DNA of 64,000 bases from the NCBI GenBank assembly GCA_902799905.1, contig CADCCB010000012.1:1-64000 (forward strand), written 5' to 3'. The translations under genes were made by a program, and so were the position numbers. This stretch comes from an uncultured Prevotellaceae bacterium. Its GTDB lineage: Bacteria; Bacteroidota; Bacteroidia; Bacteroidales; Bacteroidaceae. Of this stretch, positions 11,112-37,228 are shown one piece after another (position 1 is the stretch's first letter; the number at the start of each line of letters is the position of its first letter). Below the pieces are notes generated by a model. It saw nothing but the letters and a program-made list of their open reading frames with translations. It had not been told where the DNA came from and ran no database searches.

Positions 11112-11341
11112 AAATGCTTGAAAATTAATTAATATTGAATTTAGATTATAGTCAGCATCGGTCTTTTCTCCTGGCGGCATAATACTTATTATTAAGTACG
11201 CACACACACGGAGGGGCTACAAAATTACTATAAAATAGTGAAAATTCCAACTTTTTTGCAGAGAAATATGATTTTTATGATACATTTTTTTCCTTATCTA
11301 TACAAAATGCAAAGCCCATATAACAAAACGTCTACCAAAAA

Positions 11342-11373
11342 TTTGGCTTTTTGCACGAATTACACTAACTTTG
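11342..11373 (+). promoter_or_regulatory. Promoter for mnmG
   Basis: TTTG (11342-11345), 20 bp, then TAACTTTG (11366-11373). The mnmG ATG at 11397 follows after 23 bp. This promoter rules out translation from the upstream in-frame ATG at 11238. Confidence 0.75.
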
Positions 11374-11396
11374 CGCTCGAAAAGAAACAAGCGATT

Positions 11397-13295
11397 ATGA
11401 TTCTGAAATATGATGTGATTGTCATTGGTGGAGGGCACGCCGGATGTGAGGCAGCATGTGCCTCGGCCAATATGGGTGCACGGACACTACTGGTGACAAT
11501 GGATATGAACAAGATTGCACAGATGTCGTGTAACCCTGCCGTTGGTGGTATTGCTAAAGGGCAGATTGTGCGTGAGATCGATGCCCTGGGCGGACAGATG
11601 GGACGTGTTGCTGATGCTACAGCCATCCAGTTCCGTATGCTGAACGTAGGAAAAGGGCCAGCCGTGTGGAGTCCGCGAGCCCAATGCGATCGAGGCAAGT
11701 TCATCTGGGAGTGGCGTCGCGTGCTGGACGAGACGGAGAACCTGGATATCTGGCAAGACCAGGCCGAGGAACTACTTGTGGAAAATGGTAAGGCTATTGG
11801 CGTAAAGACCATTTGGGGAGCCGAGATTCATGCACGCTGCGTCATAATCACAGCAGGCACCTTCCTCAATGGCCTGATGCACATCGGAAGAAAGATGGTC
11901 AAAGGCGGTCGTATAGCAGAACCTGCTGCTGAGCACCTGACGGAAAGCATCACCAAGCACGGCATCCGCTCAGCTCGAATGAAGACAGGCACACCCGTCA
12001 GACTTGACAAACGCAGTATTGACTTCAGCCAGTTACGCAAACAGGAAGGCGAAAATCGCCCCTATCGCTTCTCCTATTTTCCACCGTATGTTGCGACAGG
12101 GTCACAACAAACAAAAGAAGCCCTCCCCCAACTGCCTTGTTGGGAATGCTATACCAACACCGCCGTTCACGAGATGTTACGCTCAGGACTGGCCGATTCT
12201 CCATTGTACAACGGACAAATCCAATCCATCGGCCCACGCTATTGTCCTTCGATAGAAACCAAGTTGGTGACCTTCCCTGACCGCGAGCAGCATCTGCTGT
12301 TCTTGGAACCAGAAGGCGTAGAGACTAACGAGATGTACCTGAATGGTTTTTCTTCATCGTTGCCAATGGACGTGCAAATCGAAGCCCTCAGAAAGATTTC
12401 TGGTCTCGAGCATGCCAAGGTCTATCGTCCTGGCTACGCCATCGAGTACGATTTCTTCGATCCGACACAACTGAAACACACGTTGGAATCTAAGATTATC
12501 GATGGGTTATTCATGGCTGGACAGGTCAACGGCACCACAGGCTACGAAGAGGCTGCCGGACAGGGTTTGGTGGCTGGTATCAATGCCGCATTGAAGTGCG
12601 ATGGAACCAAAGAATTTATAATGAACCGCGATGAGTCGTACATCGGAGTACTGATTGACGACCTGGTTACGAAGGGTGTAGACGAGCCCTACCGCATGTT
12701 CACGTCAAGGGCAGAGTATCGCATCCTGCTCCGCCAAGACGATGCCGATGCCCGCCTGACCGAACGCTCTTATCAGATGGGACTAGCCAAAAGAGACCGT
12801 TACGAATGGTGGCTCGAGAAGAAAAAACACATCGAAGAAATCGAAACATTCTGCAAGGAATTCCCCATCAAAGCCAAAGAGATTAACGCGCAACTGGAAC
12901 AGTTAGGCACTACCCCACTCCAGTTCGGCGTGAAGTTAGAAGACCTGATTGCCCGTCCGCAACTTAATTTCCATAACCTACAGGAAATCATTCCCGAACT
13001 AAAAGAATTCATCGGGCGCCTGCCAAACAGAACGGAAGAAATAGCCGAAGCGGCAGAAATCAGAATCAAATATAAAGGATATATAGAACGCGAACGACTG
13101 GTTGCCGACAAGATGCACCGACTGGAGAATATCAGAATCAAGGGACACTTCGACTACAACTCCATCCAGTCGCTTTCAACAGAGTGCCGACAGAAACTCA
13201 CAGCCATAGATCCAGAAACGCTGGCCCAAGCCAGCCGAATTCCAGGGGTCAGTCCTAGTGACATCAATGTGCTTCTGGTGCTGATGGGACGATAA
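11397..13295 (+). CDS. mnmG: tRNA uridine-5-carboxymethylaminomethyl modification enzyme, FAD subunit
   Basis: Together with MnmE this subunit installs the cmnm5 group on wobble U34 of several tRNAs. The start MILKYDVIVIGGGHAGCEA (11397) gives 632 residues, the family norm. The frame is open 53 codons upstream but a promoter lies inside that stretch. Visible motifs are the FAD dinucleotide motif GGGHAG (11-16), CNPAVGGIAKGQIVREIDALGG, IGPRYCPSIETK and GQVNGTTGYEEAAGQG, with the helical C-terminus ending ISGVSPxD-like (RIPGVSPSDINVLLVLMGR). The gene (also gidA) often lies near the replication origin. Here it is followed by two parS sites. Confidence 0.97.
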   Translation: MILKYDVIVIGGGHAGCEAACASANMGARTLLVTMDMNKIAQMSCNPAVGGIAKGQIVREIDALGGQMGRVADATAIQFRMLNVGKGPAVWSPRAQCDRGKFIWEWRRVLDETENLDIWQDQAEELLVENGKAIGVKTIWGAEIHARCVIITAGTFLNGLMHIGRKMVKGGRIAEPAAEHLTESITKHGIRSARMKTGTPVRLDKRSIDFSQLRKQEGENRPYRFSYFPPYVATGSQQTKEALPQLPCWECYTNTAVHEMLRSGLADSPLYNGQIQSIGPRYCPSIETKLVTFPDREQHLLFLEPEGVETNEMYLNGFSSSLPMDVQIEALRKISGLEHAKVYRPGYAIEYDFFDPTQLKHTLESKIIDGLFMAGQVNGTTGYEEAAGQGLVAGINAALKCDGTKEFIMNRDESYIGVLIDDLVTKGVDEPYRMFTSRAEYRILLRQDDADARLTERSYQMGLAKRDRYEWWLEKKKHIEEIETFCKEFPIKAKEINAQLEQLGTTPLQFGVKLEDLIARPQLNFHNLQEIIPELKEFIGRLPNRTEEIAEAAEIRIKYKGYIERERLVADKMHRLENIRIKGHFDYNSIQSLSTECRQKLTAIDPETLAQASRIPGVSPSDINVLLVLMGR

Positions 13296-13316: not shown

Positions 13317-13332
13317 CGTTTCACGTGAAACA
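13317..13332. promoter_or_regulatory. parS-like ParB binding site 1
   Basis: The sequence CGTTTCACGTGAAACA matches the widely conserved parS consensus TGTTTCACGTGAAACA at 15 of 16 positions. The 14-bp core is a perfect palindrome. It lies between mnmG and apt. Confidence 0.85.
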
Positions 13333-13930: not shown

Positions 13931-13960
13931 CGTTTCACGTGAAACAAAGAAACGTGAAAC
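13931..13960. promoter_or_regulatory. parS-like ParB binding site 2 plus adjacent half-site
   Basis: CGTTTCACGTGAAACA at 13931-13946 is identical to site 1, including the following AAAGAA. A degenerate half-site (ACGTGAAAC, 13952-13960) follows directly. It lies between apt and uvrC, 614 bp from site 1. Confidence 0.85.
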
Positions 13961-28893: not shown

Positions 28894-28921
28894 TAACTGA
28901 CAAATGATAAATAACAAAAGT

Positions 28922-30970
28922 ATGATGAAAGTATTGATACAACATAGTTTGAGATGGATGATAGTTTTATCATTTGTTATTTGTCATTTATCATATAGCC
29001 CTGCATGGGCACAAGTAGGCACGTGGAAGGCCTATATGGCATATTCAGAGCCTCAGCAAATCGTGAAGGCACAGAATACCCTTTTTGTCCGTGCTTCCAA
29101 CGATCTCTATCAGTATAATCTCAACGACAAGTCAATTACCACCTACGACAAGACCAACGTATTGAATGACAACAATATCAGGCTGATTGAGTGGAATACG
29201 GAAGCCAAGCGACTCATCATCGTCTATGACAATTCAAACATCGACATCATGGATGTGAATGGTGAAGTGAATAACCTTAGCGCCCTCTACAATATGACGA
29301 TGACGCAGGACAAGGGCATCAACAGCATCTACATGAATGGCATCTATGCCTATCTTTCTACTGATTTCGGCGTTATGAAAGTCAACATGCAGCGCTATGA
29401 GATCAGCGAAACCTATATGCTGAATCAAAACATACAATCTGTTACTATCAGTAATGGATTTATCTATGCACGCAATGATCAAAATGTGGTTTATAGTGCC
29501 AATATGAACGATAATCTCATTAATCAGAATAATTGGCAACAAACCGACAATTATCCCTCTTTTACTATCAATACAGCCGACTGGGACAACTATATAGAAA
29601 TAGTGAAGACGCTAAAGCCAGGTGGACCATACTATAACCAGTTCTACGAATCGAAAATCGTCAATGGAAAACTGTATACTACAGGTGGCGCATTCCGTTC
29701 TGGACAGATTGCACTCAATAATCCTGGCATCATACAGGAATATGACTTTGATACTTGGACAGTCTATCCAACCAATATCAATGAGATAACAGAAGTTTCT
29801 TACAAAGATATCAACTGCATAGATGTTGATCCTACCGATTACAACCATTTCTTTGCTGCTGGACGATGCGGTCTTTACGAATTCTCAAACGGTTCATTCA
29901 AGACACTCTATAACCAGCACAACAGTCCGTTAAAGCCTGCATTTGACCGTTCATTCTTATCAGACGGTTATACACTCGTTCATGGTATAAAATTTGATAG
30001 CGAGGGTAATCTTTGGGTTCTAAACAGTCAGACCAAGGATGTCAATCTGATGGTACTGGAAAAGAATGGAGAATGGAAGACTCATACCAAGAGTGAACTC
30101 TTCAACAGCAATGGTATCAGTAAACCTGGTTTGCGATGTATGATGTTCGACAGTAGTGGATTGCTCTGGTTTGTCAATACGCACTTTTCAGGACCTTCTG
30201 TACATTGTTATAGTACCCAGACAAACGAAATCCTTTCATATACCAAGTTCACCAACCAGGATGGTACGAACTATGAGAACTGCTATCCTTACGATATTCA
30301 GGAAGACAATCAAGGCAATATCTGGATAGCCACCAATCAAGGACCGTTTTATATTAAGAAAGAAGAGAAAGGCCAGAGCAATGCGACTCTCTATCAGGAA
30401 AAAGTACCCCGTAATGATGGTACAAATTATGCCGACTATCTGCTGAGTGGTATTCATACCAACGGTATAGCCATTGACGGTGGCGGCAGAAAATGGTTTG
30501 CAACCATCGGAAACGGCGTTTTTCTGGTTAGTGCAGACAATATGACGCAGTTACAGCATTTCACCGCTGAGAACTCTCCCTTGTTGTCTAACAATGTACA
30601 ATACATATCTATCAATCATTCATCAGGTGAAGTGTTCTTCCTCACAGACAAAGGACTCTGTTCTTACGTAGCCGATGCCACTATTGCCAGCGATGATATG
30701 CAGAAAGACAATGTCTATGCCTATCCTAATCCTGTAGAATCAGGCTATACAGGCATTATAACGGTCGTAGGACTGTCTTATGATGCTGATGTGAAGATTC
30801 TCACCAGTAGTGGCCGATTAGTGACTCAGGGACGCTCTAATGGCGGCACATTTACTTGGGACGGCATGGATACACAAGGTAAGCGTGTGGCCAGTGGCGT
30901 CTATATGGTTGCAGCGACAACCAGCGATGGAAATAAAGGAATAGTGTGTAAGATAGCCATCATCAATTAG
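28922..30970 (+). CDS. porZ: PorZ-like type IX secretion beta-propeller protein
   Basis: I choose the start at 28922 (MMKVLIQHSLRWM), because the ATG at 28904 lies in a repeat; the product is about 682 residues. A signal peptide ends at AWA-Q. GTWKAYMAYSEPQQIVKA then opens a two-bladed propeller arrangement of two-component-regulator-propeller repeats (LWVLNSQ, LLWFVNTHF, GNIWIATNQGPFYI, GRKWFATIGNGVFLV). A T9SS-type C-terminal domain follows (VYAYPNPVESGYTG to MVAATTSDGNKGIVCKIAIIN). In Porphyromonas, PorZ sits at the surface and supports A-LPS attachment of cargo. The signal-peptide codons VICHLS are themselves made from a heptad-type repeat. Confidence 0.82.
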   Translation: MMKVLIQHSLRWMIVLSFVICHLSYSPAWAQVGTWKAYMAYSEPQQIVKAQNTLFVRASNDLYQYNLNDKSITTYDKTNVLNDNNIRLIEWNTEAKRLIIVYDNSNIDIMDVNGEVNNLSALYNMTMTQDKGINSIYMNGIYAYLSTDFGVMKVNMQRYEISETYMLNQNIQSVTISNGFIYARNDQNVVYSANMNDNLINQNNWQQTDNYPSFTINTADWDNYIEIVKTLKPGGPYYNQFYESKIVNGKLYTTGGAFRSGQIALNNPGIIQEYDFDTWTVYPTNINEITEVSYKDINCIDVDPTDYNHFFAAGRCGLYEFSNGSFKTLYNQHNSPLKPAFDRSFLSDGYTLVHGIKFDSEGNLWVLNSQTKDVNLMVLEKNGEWKTHTKSELFNSNGISKPGLRCMMFDSSGLLWFVNTHFSGPSVHCYSTQTNEILSYTKFTNQDGTNYENCYPYDIQEDNQGNIWIATNQGPFYIKKEEKGQSNATLYQEKVPRNDGTNYADYLLSGIHTNGIAIDGGGRKWFATIGNGVFLVSADNMTQLQHFTAENSPLLSNNVQYISINHSSGEVFFLTDKGLCSYVADATIASDDMQKDNVYAYPNPVESGYTGIITVVGLSYDADVKILTSSGRLVTQGRSNGGTFTWDGMDTQGKRVASGVYMVAATTSDGNKGIVCKIAIIN

Positions 30971-34694: not shown

Positions 34695-35687
34695 TTAACT
34701 CAATGCAAGCATCTTTTCTATTGGCTTTACTGCATCTTTGGCAATTTCTGGATCTACCTCTACTGAAGGCCATTCGTACTTCAGACAGTTGTAGATTTTC
34801 AAGAGTGTATTCATCTTCATATATTGACACTCGTTACAACTGCATTCCAATCCGCTCTCACTGATTTCTGGCGGCACAGGGATGAATTCCTTATCAGGAC
34901 AGGTACGTTGCATCTCATGCAGTATTCCAGCCTCTGTAGCCACTATAAACTGCTTTTGGTTACTCTGCTGCGCATAGGTCAACATCGTGGCTGTAGAGCC
35001 CTTTATATCGGCTACGGCAAGCACTGGAGCCTTACACTCAAGATGAGCCATCACCACAGCATCAGGATATTGCTTCTTCAGTTCCAATATCTTACTGACT
35101 GAAAAACGCTCGTGGACATGACAGCCACCATTCCACAACAACATCTGTCGGCCTGTCACTTCATTGATATAGTTGCCCAGATTATAATCAGGACCGAAGA
35201 TAAATTTTCCATCCTCAGGCAACTGATCGACTACTTTCTTGGCATTACCACTGGTGACAACTACATCCGTCAGAGCCTTAACTGCAGCCGTCGTATTGAC
35301 ATAAGAGATAACCTGATAGCCAGGATGCTCATCCTTGAATTTCTCCAAGTCCTCGGCCTTACAAGAATCAGCCAACGAACAGCCAGCATTCAAGTCAGGA
35401 CAAAGCACAGTTTTATCAGGTGACAGCAATTTACAGGTTTCAGCCATAAAGTGAACACCACACATCACCATGATCTTGGCATCTGTCTCAGCAGCCTTGC
35501 GAGCCAAAGCCAGCGAGTCGCCAACAAAGTCGGCCACCTCCTGTATGTCACCTATAGTATAATAGTGAGCCAGTATGATGGCATCTTTCTCTTTACAAAG
35601 TCTGCGAATCTCAGCCTTCAGGTCTATGTTCTCTGCTACAGGCTCATCGATAAAGCCCTGTTCAATCCACTCGTTTTTCAACACCAT
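34695..35687 (-). CDS. nadA: Quinolinate synthase A
   Basis: The enzyme condenses iminoaspartate with dihydroxyacetone phosphate to quinolinate in NAD synthesis, using an oxygen-sensitive [4Fe-4S] cluster. The 330-residue protein shows AIILAHYYTIGDIQEVADFVGDS, VMCGVHFMAETCKLL with the first cysteine ligand, and LCPDLNAGCSLADSC. The last cysteine region is SGLECSCNECQYMKMNTL. The length is typical of the shorter NadA type. nadB and nadC are not nearby. The start lies at the edge of the candidate origin region. Confidence 0.96.
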   Translation of the reverse strand: MVLKNEWIEQGFIDEPVAENIDLKAEIRRLCKEKDAIILAHYYTIGDIQEVADFVGDSLALARKAAETDAKIMVMCGVHFMAETCKLLSPDKTVLCPDLNAGCSLADSCKAEDLEKFKDEHPGYQVISYVNTTAAVKALTDVVVTSGNAKKVVDQLPEDGKFIFGPDYNLGNYINEVTGRQMLLWNGGCHVHERFSVSKILELKKQYPDAVVMAHLECKAPVLAVADIKGSTATMLTYAQQSNQKQFIVATEAGILHEMQRTCPDKEFIPVPPEISESGLECSCNECQYMKMNTLLKIYNCLKYEWPSVEVDPEIAKDAVKPIEKMLALS

Positions 35688-36058
35688 ATCATTTATTTAT
35701 TTTTTCTTTTTCTTTTTTAAAAATAGAAATGAGTAGTATGATGTGCCGTTGATAAGTTGAAAACTTATTAGCCTTTTTCTTGCTCATTTCTTTATTCACT
35801 TGTGATATTAGTCTATCCACACGCTCTGTTCATTGTTTCTTATTGAAAATGAGACAAGTGTGATAGTTATCCACAGTTTCGTATTTCGGTGCAAAATTAC
35901 TAAGTTTATATTTTTTTTCAGCAAAAAAGCGTGGAAAATTTTAAAAAAAGTGTATAAAAAAGACGTGGATATCTACACCCACGTCTCTTCTATTGGATAT
36001 CCACATTGTTATTCACACACTTATCCACAAAGTTTTCCACACCAATATCTCTCATTTC
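35688..36058. other. Candidate replication origin (oriC): DnaA-box cluster with AT-rich DNA
   Basis: This 371-bp gap has no gene. Perfect DnaA boxes TTATCCACA occur at 35867-35875 and 36021-36029, and TTATTCACA at 36009-36017. Near matches are at 35813-35821 (CTATCCACA), 35997-36005 (ATATCCACA) and 36033-36041 (TTTTCCACA), all on the plus strand. AT-rich stretches that could unwind lie at about 35696-35730 and 35890-35960. Two stems are present: 35752-35758 with 35762-35768, and AGACGTGG (35961-35968) with CCACGTCT (35979-35986). Gene orientation does not favour an origin here, since genes on both sides point toward it, so the call stays tentative. Confidence 0.55.
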
Positions 36059-37228
36059 TCATCTTTCATCTCTCATTTCTCGAGAATCCAGTAAGTATCG
36101 GTCTATGAATGACTGCACAATAGGCCATTGGCTTTGTGGCAATTGACAATGTCCATGTTGTCCGACAATGCTCCATGCCATTCTATCTGGTATACCAAAA
36201 AACTTCCATACACAATGGGCGGCTTCGGCAGAGACTTGCATCGACTCGTCGGCAAGCCATTCGTAGTCAGGATTACCTAACAAGAGTAAGGCTCGTGGAC
36301 AGATCATTGCACACAATTCATGCTGGTCGTAGGGGAGTTGATAGACGCTGTCACCATGGAAATTCTCCTTCTGACTCTCCAAGAACCAGTGATAGTCGGT
36401 CTTATCAATGTCTTCCAGTTTTTTTCCTGCCAATGTCAACTCGTGCGACTTTCTCCATACTGCAGCACCACCTCCACCAGGTTCTTGTGCAATGGTCAGA
36501 GCGATACGCTCATCGAAGGCACCACAGTAGAGAGCCATCTTGCCGGCATAAGAACATCCTGTCACACTAATATGTTTCGTATCTATCTTGGTTGCTTCTG
36601 GTCCCAACTGCTGTAATCCGTCAATCAGACGACTCATTCCCCACGCCCATTCACTGTAGGCTCCATTGTCCTTCAGGGTAGGGTAGAGGCGGTCAAAATG
36701 ATGTTCGCCCCGTTCGTGGTGTTTACCCCACTGCTTGTAGTCATTAACCTGTGCTGAGACAAAGGTTGCGGTGGCAATAGGCTTGTCTTCTAATAGTTGA
36801 CGAGGCAGGGCTATCATATCGGTGCCTATCATTAGTGCGTATGGAGCGTTACCTGTCTTGGGATAATGAATCTCAGATTTCAGCGTCAATGTCTCCTTAT
36901 CCACTGTGACATCCACTATCAGTGTGTCACCCTCCATACGGGCTTTCACCTGTGCTGGTTCCACGGTAGGTTTTACACCAATGCCGTAGTGTTGTATAAG
37001 ATGACCAATGTCACTGCGACGTTTAGCCCAGTCGTTGAAACTACTGACACCCTCTAAGGCATTTGGCAGTTCATGGATCACAGGCAACTGATCAGCATCT
37101 GGCATTTGTGGCACAGCAAAGTGCTTGCCGGTATGCTCAACCTCATAGACATAAGGCACATCTTGGGCCGCTACGGTTTGAAAGCCTGTTATGAGTGCGG
37201 TTATACATAAGAAAATAGATACTCTCAT
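36059..37228 (-). CDS. CE15-type glucuronoyl methylesterase
   Basis: The secreted alpha/beta hydrolase should cleave ester bonds between 4-O-methylglucuronic acid of xylan and lignin or methyl groups. The 389-residue protein has a signal peptide (cleavage near VAA-QDV). The CE15 serine motif is VTGCSYAGKMAL (Ser226), and the acid and arginine segment is AQEPGGGGAAVWRKS (Glu249). The catalytic histidine is in GQHGHCQLP (His360). It is the 3'-most gene of the minus-strand xylan cluster. The last residues SREMRDER and the stop are encoded by a heptad-period tract (TCTCATT-type), so the native C-terminus probably ended near DRYLL. Confidence 0.85.
   Translation of the reverse strand: MRVSIFLCITALITGFQTVAAQDVPYVYEVEHTGKHFAVPQMPDADQLPVIHELPNALEGVSSFNDWAKRRSDIGHLIQHYGIGVKPTVEPAQVKARMEGDTLIVDVTVDKETLTLKSEIHYPKTGNAPYALMIGTDMIALPRQLLEDKPIATATFVSAQVNDYKQWGKHHERGEHHFDRLYPTLKDNGAYSEWAWGMSRLIDGLQQLGPEATKIDTKHISVTGCSYAGKMALYCGAFDERIALTIAQEPGGGGAAVWRKSHELTLAGKKLEDIDKTDYHWFLESQKENFHGDSVYQLPYDQHELCAMICPRALLLLGNPDYEWLADESMQVSAEAAHCVWKFFGIPDRMAWSIVGQHGHCQLPQSQWPIVQSFIDRYLLDSREMRDER

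Follow-up and report, generated by a model that had tools for sequence, protein, structure and literature searches.

A conserved cluster of phased DnaA boxes beside nadA is the probable chromosomal replication origin of a Prevotella-type genome

The gap at 35688-36058 of the window, by which the whole analysed stretch of 64,000 nucleotides is meant, is very probably the DnaA-dependent chromosomal origin (oriC) of a Prevotella-type genome. A sequence-only reading of this DNA had proposed a candidate origin here, and the proposal was supported by the box cluster, by its conservation, by the GC skew of relatives and by the place of parS-like sites. The analysis establishes the sites themselves, how they are phased and conserved, in how many copies they occur, and that they lie at the skew switch of relatives or close to it. 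The gap measures 371 bp, is 70% AT and separates nadA from a glucuronoyl-esterase gene. The features discussed below are the following.

11238-13295, plus strand: gidA/mnmG (PF01134, E 1.9e-157)
13317-13332: parS-like palindrome with 1 mismatch to TGTTTCACGTGAAACA, which we take to be the parS consensus (motif scan)
13931-13946: second parS-like palindrome, 1 mismatch (motif scan)
34695-35687, minus strand: nadA, quinolinate synthase, left neighbour, with its start at the gap and reading away from it (PF02445, E 3.4e-119)
35813-35821, plus strand: DnaA-type box CTATCCACA, 1 mismatch (scan of the window)
35867-35875, plus strand: perfect DnaA box TTATCCACA, left border of the conserved core (scan of the window)
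35885-35929: conserved AT-rich core GGTGCAAAATTA.TAAGTTTATAT.TTTTT, proposed duplex unwinding element (alignments, stability profile)
35892-35899, minus strand: promoter-like word TAnnTTTG inside the core, reading toward nadA
35930-35938, minus strand: inverted box-like TTTTCCACG, 2 mismatches, of which GTGGAAA[AT] is kept in 65 of 77 relatives
35954-35993, minus strand: intrinsic-terminator-like hairpin followed by a T run (folding)
35997-36041, plus strand: four head-to-tail DnaA boxes, ATATCCACA, TTATTCACA, TTATCCACA and TTTTCCACA
36059-37228, minus strand: glucuronoyl esterase gene, presumably CE15-type, right neighbour, pointing into the gap (PF22244, E 4.3e-63)

The six same-strand boxes that had been noticed within 230 bp were all recovered, on the plus strand at 35813-36041, when the window was scanned for DnaA-type 9-mers with at most one mismatch. 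In other 230-bp stretches of the window the highest count is one such box for the plus strand and two for the minus strand. At least six boxes were obtained in none of 5000 draws from a first-order Markov model of the 371-bp gap (mean 0.13). This indicates a cluster beyond chance, as is expected of an oriC. The four boxes of the right-hand array start at 35997, 36009, 36021 and 36033, in steps of exactly 12 bp, a regularity that the sequence-only reading does not mention. Boxes in helical phase, on which a filament could assemble, are another mark of an oriC, and they were found with 12-bp steps here and with 11-12 bp in relatives. In the source assembly, a 3.42-Mb draft of 89 contigs, the tandem 12-bp pattern gave 8 matches with at most two mismatches, 3 of them in the gap; both perfect matches of the genome fall in the gap and none elsewhere. 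Exact TTATCCACA occurred 21 times in this draft versus 51 times for the reversed control, as if DnaA boxes were avoided outside the origin. GATC is absent from the 371-bp gap, and Rfam gave no match in the window or in the end of contig C12.

Conservation was studied in the best 80 of 483 related loci obtained in a NadA scan, which are titled Prevotella(ceae) or related. Three of these (L003, L016 and L035) had too little upstream DNA and were dropped, which left 77 usable loci. A box with at most one mismatch was present on the left in 74 of the 77, on the right in 75 and on both sides in 74. The spacing of successive right-hand boxes, counted with a looser box definition of up to two mismatches, was 12 bp in 104 of 155 cases and 11 bp in 28 (132 of 155 together), and 11-12 bp is about one helical turn. 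The counterpart of the box at 35813 was observed at -133 to -141 from nadA in many relatives, not in all.

The left and the right boxes enclose a core of about 45 bp. Apart from the stretch at the nadA start, the remainder of the gap is less well conserved than this core. In 70 of the 77 loci the mean duplex stability had a minimum of -1.054 per step in the core; only the T-run at the nadA end, with -1.027, was less stable. In the window the least stable 60-mer of the gap is likewise at the nadA end, within the lowest 0.5% of the window. That the core would be the least stable part of the gap was ruled out, the T-run at the nadA end being slightly less stable. An easily melted AT-rich element beside the boxes, as an oriC should possess, is present, and the core and the T-run are both candidates for it. 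The core also contains the word TAnnTTTG, a Bacteroidetes-type promoter consensus. Of the stems that had been described in the gap, the one at 35954-35993 folds strongly (-22.7 kcal/mol, z -6.5, none of 200 shuffles as good) and, judged by its sequence, would be placed to stop transcription of the CE15 gene before the core.

A model of the core (R1) was built on sequence alone from 42 sequences, i.e. 41 loci and the window, and was searched against 248 genomes of the family, 85 of the same genus and 163 of other genera, at a threshold of E 1e-5. The tallies were made by hand, and 59 unlisted genomes lacking a match were taken as other genera since same-genus rows were listed first. At E 1e-5 or better R1 matched 62 of the 85 same-genus genomes, with 13 weak matches and 10 genomes without a match, and none of the 163 genomes of other genera. 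An oriC should occur once per chromosome, and by the hand count a single strong match was present in 61 of the 62; G188 has a second one at 9.1e-6. NadA-coding sequence adjoins the match in 30 of the 30 loci returned by the search, and a weak match in G123 (E 1.8e-4) is 368 bp upstream of nadA by coordinates. Because some of the searched genomes also supplied model sequences, this test is not wholly independent. The 23 of 85 same-genus genomes that are without a strong core match count against the origin, as does the draft state of the genome. Five genomes of two contigs each (G032, G054, G138, G141 and G245) showed a single R1 match on one contig only. Should the second contig of such genomes represent a second chromosome, its origin would be a different one; for P. 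intermedia, the origin of the second chromosome is reported to be unknown (PMC4755523).

With the source assembly being a draft, genome-wide evidence from GC skew was drawn from relatives only. In the complete genome of P. communis E15-14, which was sampled in 20-kb stretches, the skew was positive in 7 of the 9 as far as 1.45 Mb and negative in all 11 from 1.63 to 3.43 Mb. Over 232 contiguous kb its cumulative skew was minimal at record position 490, which is 4.7 kb from the nadA start. Skew after the element was greater than before it in four out of four single-contig same-genus genomes tested. The values for the half after and the half before the element, which is far from the record ends in these three genomes, were +0.061/-0.009 in G004, +0.020/-0.034 in G184 and +0.086/-0.062 in G080. 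The share of positions that did as well or better was 0.037 in P. communis, 0.061 in G004, 0.097 in G184 and 0.030 in G080, and the best skew bin holds the element in P. communis and G080. From coarse samples, the breakpoint of a two-arc fit was placed 124-284 kb from the element in G004, 196-371 kb in G184 and 90-260 kb in G080. Out of 300 shuffles 90 were as good in G004, where the signal is weak, 10 in G184, 2 in G080 and none in P. communis. A skew minimum near the gap had been named as the check on the origin, and in relatives the switch indeed lies at or near the conserved element; the minimum that marks an oriC was seen in relatives only, and coarsely in G004, G184 and G080. In the window itself the cumulative skew to the right of the gap falls from -118 at 36 kb to -516 at 63 kb. 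This negative local skew is opposite to the leading-strand sign and counts against an origin. We ascribe it to polysaccharide genes that may have been brought in there.

The right side of the gap differs from that of P. communis. For 14 of the 19 open reading frames at 11.2-35.7 kb the best match is in place, to the left of the P. communis element, and the reading frames at 36.1 to 55 kb are all without a match in the part of P. communis that was sampled. The right neighbour of the element in P. communis is a trmH-type gene that reads away. Of the 80 loci, 57 have a trmH-type homologue on the right side; it is at most 700 bp away in 32 loci and diverges from nadA in 48. The window's own genome has its trmH-type gene (PF00588) on contig C16, beside TonB-receptor and SusD genes. 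This suggests that polysaccharide genes were probably inserted between origin and trmH, with the joins between contigs of this genome as we infer them. The polysaccharide-use genes observed to the right of the gap are those for the glucuronoyl esterase and a GH10 xylanase (36059-64000) and for a TonB receptor and SusD (C16 from 3073). A CE15 homologue adjoins the element on the right side in 6 of 80 relatives, where trmH is about 1.7 kb off.

Against an origin it had been argued that the genes on both sides point toward the gap. That is so for the CE15 gene, which is on the minus strand and points into the gap; nadA, also on the minus strand, reads away from it. Moreover, the coding strand bias in P. 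communis is about nil, as 171,063 of 331,707 coding bases in the samples (51.6%) are co-oriented with replication. This implies that gene direction carries no signal, and the argument fails. In keeping with the remark that parS sites are about 22 kb away, two parS-like sites were found at that distance from the gap. With at most two mismatches, the sites at 13317 and 13931 are the only ones in the own genome, and those at 3,522,361 and 3,522,978 the only ones in P. communis. The pair is 22 kb from the element in the window and 25 kb in P. communis, on the same side, and gidA adjoins it; gidA/mnmG is often near bacterial origins. A reversed parS control gave 1+1 matches versus 2+2 observed in the own genome and 2+2 versus 2+2 in P. 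communis. These counts are similar, and therefore the evidence from parS lies in the shared place, not in the count. Parts of the chromosome close to an oriC usually carry parS, and parS-like sites were found here by motif match.

Adjacency to dnaA, which is usual for an oriC and does not define it, was not observed: the own genome has dnaA on contig C48, and P. communis has it at 757 kb. It had been asked whether a better cluster lies next to dnaA, and no competitor appeared: in both the own genome and P. communis the surroundings of the DnaA domain match are free of box clusters out to 1.5 kb. Near the DnaA match the own genome has two one-mismatch boxes, 439 bp apart and on opposite strands, and P. 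communis has two boxes within 1.5 kb. A rival origin beside dnaA was rejected on the absence of a cluster within this 1.5 kb, and farther out on a scan of the exact box only, which occurs once on the dnaA contig of the own genome, about 12.7 kb away from the DnaA match.

The boxes and the core could form a DnaA-controlled regulatory region of nadA with a Bacteroidetes-type promoter and not an origin. This is in keeping with TAnnTTTG being in the most conserved part and directed at nadA, and with G194, G233 and G219, three genomes of the genus, each in one or two contigs, that lack both a NadA match and a strong core match. However, such a promoter should depend on its adjacency to nadA, and this dependence was not found in two loci. 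The element of L081 is separated from nadA by a methylase gene (1148-2911; N6_Mtase, TaqI_C and Eco57I domains), its left box being 2.3 kb from nadA, and boxes, core and array are all intact. The single-contig genome G194 has no NadA match, yet it carries a seven-box cluster, in reversed orientation, in the same slot. On one side this cluster is flanked by a homologue of the gene at 28904-30970 of the window (49% over 451 aa) and on the other by a glycosyltransferase-9 gene with 55% identity over 215 aa to a P. communis gene near trmH; a homologue of the latter is also on the own contig C16 (54%). The skew contrast at the G194 cluster is +0.064, with a share of 0.099. L081 and G194 together indicate that the element is not simply the nadA promoter, and they rule out that it is a promoter only. 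Furthermore, the array, phased at 11-12 bp, extends as far as 354 bp from the nadA start, and a regulatory role would leave the skew switch and the parS proximity unexplained. We consider regulation of nadA in place of an origin very unlikely.

Slightly less probable again is a cluster that binds DnaA for titration or reactivation. The E. coli sites datA and DARS are DnaA-box clusters too, so a cluster as such would suit this explanation; but the present one coincides with the skew switch of relatives or lies close to it and shares its side of the map with the parS-like sites, and its tandem pattern has no equally good second match in the own genome. That short AT-rich words have clustered by chance can be given practically no weight. 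The number of one-mismatch boxes in the whole window is mildly raised (23 versus 16.4 expected, a count reached in 6 of 100 shuffles), which is what chance would offer in its favour, whereas the Markov draws and the preservation of position, strand and spacing in 74 of the 77 relatives refute it.

For the gap as an origin, we infer DnaA binding, unwinding, initiation and ParB binding in the following manner. By analogy, DnaA-ATP would assemble on the phased array at 35997-36041 and on the box at 35867, and the resulting filament would open AT-rich DNA, most likely the core between the array and the left box. Helicase would then be loaded at the opened DNA, from which replication would proceed bidirectionally. 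The terminator-like hairpin may shield the core from transcription of the right-hand gene, and ParB on the parS-like pair 22 kb away may organise the new origins.

In other genera of the family a trmH-type gene was found upstream of nadA, reading away and 461-550 bp off, in 12 of 14 genomes with nadA. The exceptions are G005, where the trmH-type gene is on the other side of nadA, and G050, where it is not within the stretch. In G100, the only other-genus genome sampled for skew, the skew contrast is maximal (0.125) in the bin at 852-1050 kb that contains the nadA-trmH gap. This suggests that the nadA-trmH gap may be the origin more widely than in the genus. Clustered TTATCCACA upstream of nadA was absent from 15 loci, 14 of other genera and that of G247 of the same genus. 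Ten loci of the g2 group (L212-L214 and L217-L223) have TTATCAACA repeated upstream of nadA, and six of them also TTGTCCACA; some of these copies are inside the trmH-type gene. Judged by their sequence, TTATCAACA and TTGTCCACA are perhaps the DnaA-box forms of the genus g2 group. That the nadA-trmH gap is the ancestral oriC of the family and that the Prevotella core doubles as the nadA promoter is a possibility we hold to be rather doubtful. If true, a gene of NAD synthesis would be transcribed out of the origin in Prevotella.

The position of the origin in Prevotella matters for growth rates derived from metagenome read depth, for the orientation of genomes and for the building of vectors. 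For annotators dnaA is an unreliable guide to the origin here. For most same-genus genomes of the search, including drafts, the conserved element beside nadA would serve as a searchable oriC marker, and it offers a precise experimental target.

In E. coli the oriC has an AT-rich unwinding element by an ordered array of DnaA boxes, with gidA nearby, and the present gap is like it in having an AT-rich element beside ordered boxes and gidA in its neighbourhood. The E. coli oriC also has Dam GATC sites and boxes of mixed orientation, unlike the gap, which is without GATC and has its six boxes on one strand. The oriC of B. subtilis adjoins dnaA, unlike the gap described here. The unwinding region incC of B. 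subtilis has one group of DnaA boxes close to the unwinding site and a second group at a greater distance (PMC6669920), and the gap resembles it in its two box groups and in the consensus TTATCCACA; the B. subtilis oriC is also described there as carrying DnaA-trios. Among the literature titles and abstracts surveyed, none reported a Prevotella or Bacteroides oriC beside nadA. The kind of site is already known, namely as a predicted oriC away from dnaA in Prevotella, and a location away from dnaA is said to be common in Bacteroidetes (PMC4755523). The first-chromosome oriC of P. intermedia OMA14 was placed by Ori-Finder at 1,498,452-1,498,927, at a skew transition (PMC4755523); it is a prediction and not an experimental result, and the likeness drawn is to its published description. 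As far as that description goes, the two sites have in common multiple DnaA boxes, a GC-skew transition and a position far from dnaA, and they are similar in size, 476 bp in P. intermedia OMA14 versus 371 bp for the gap.
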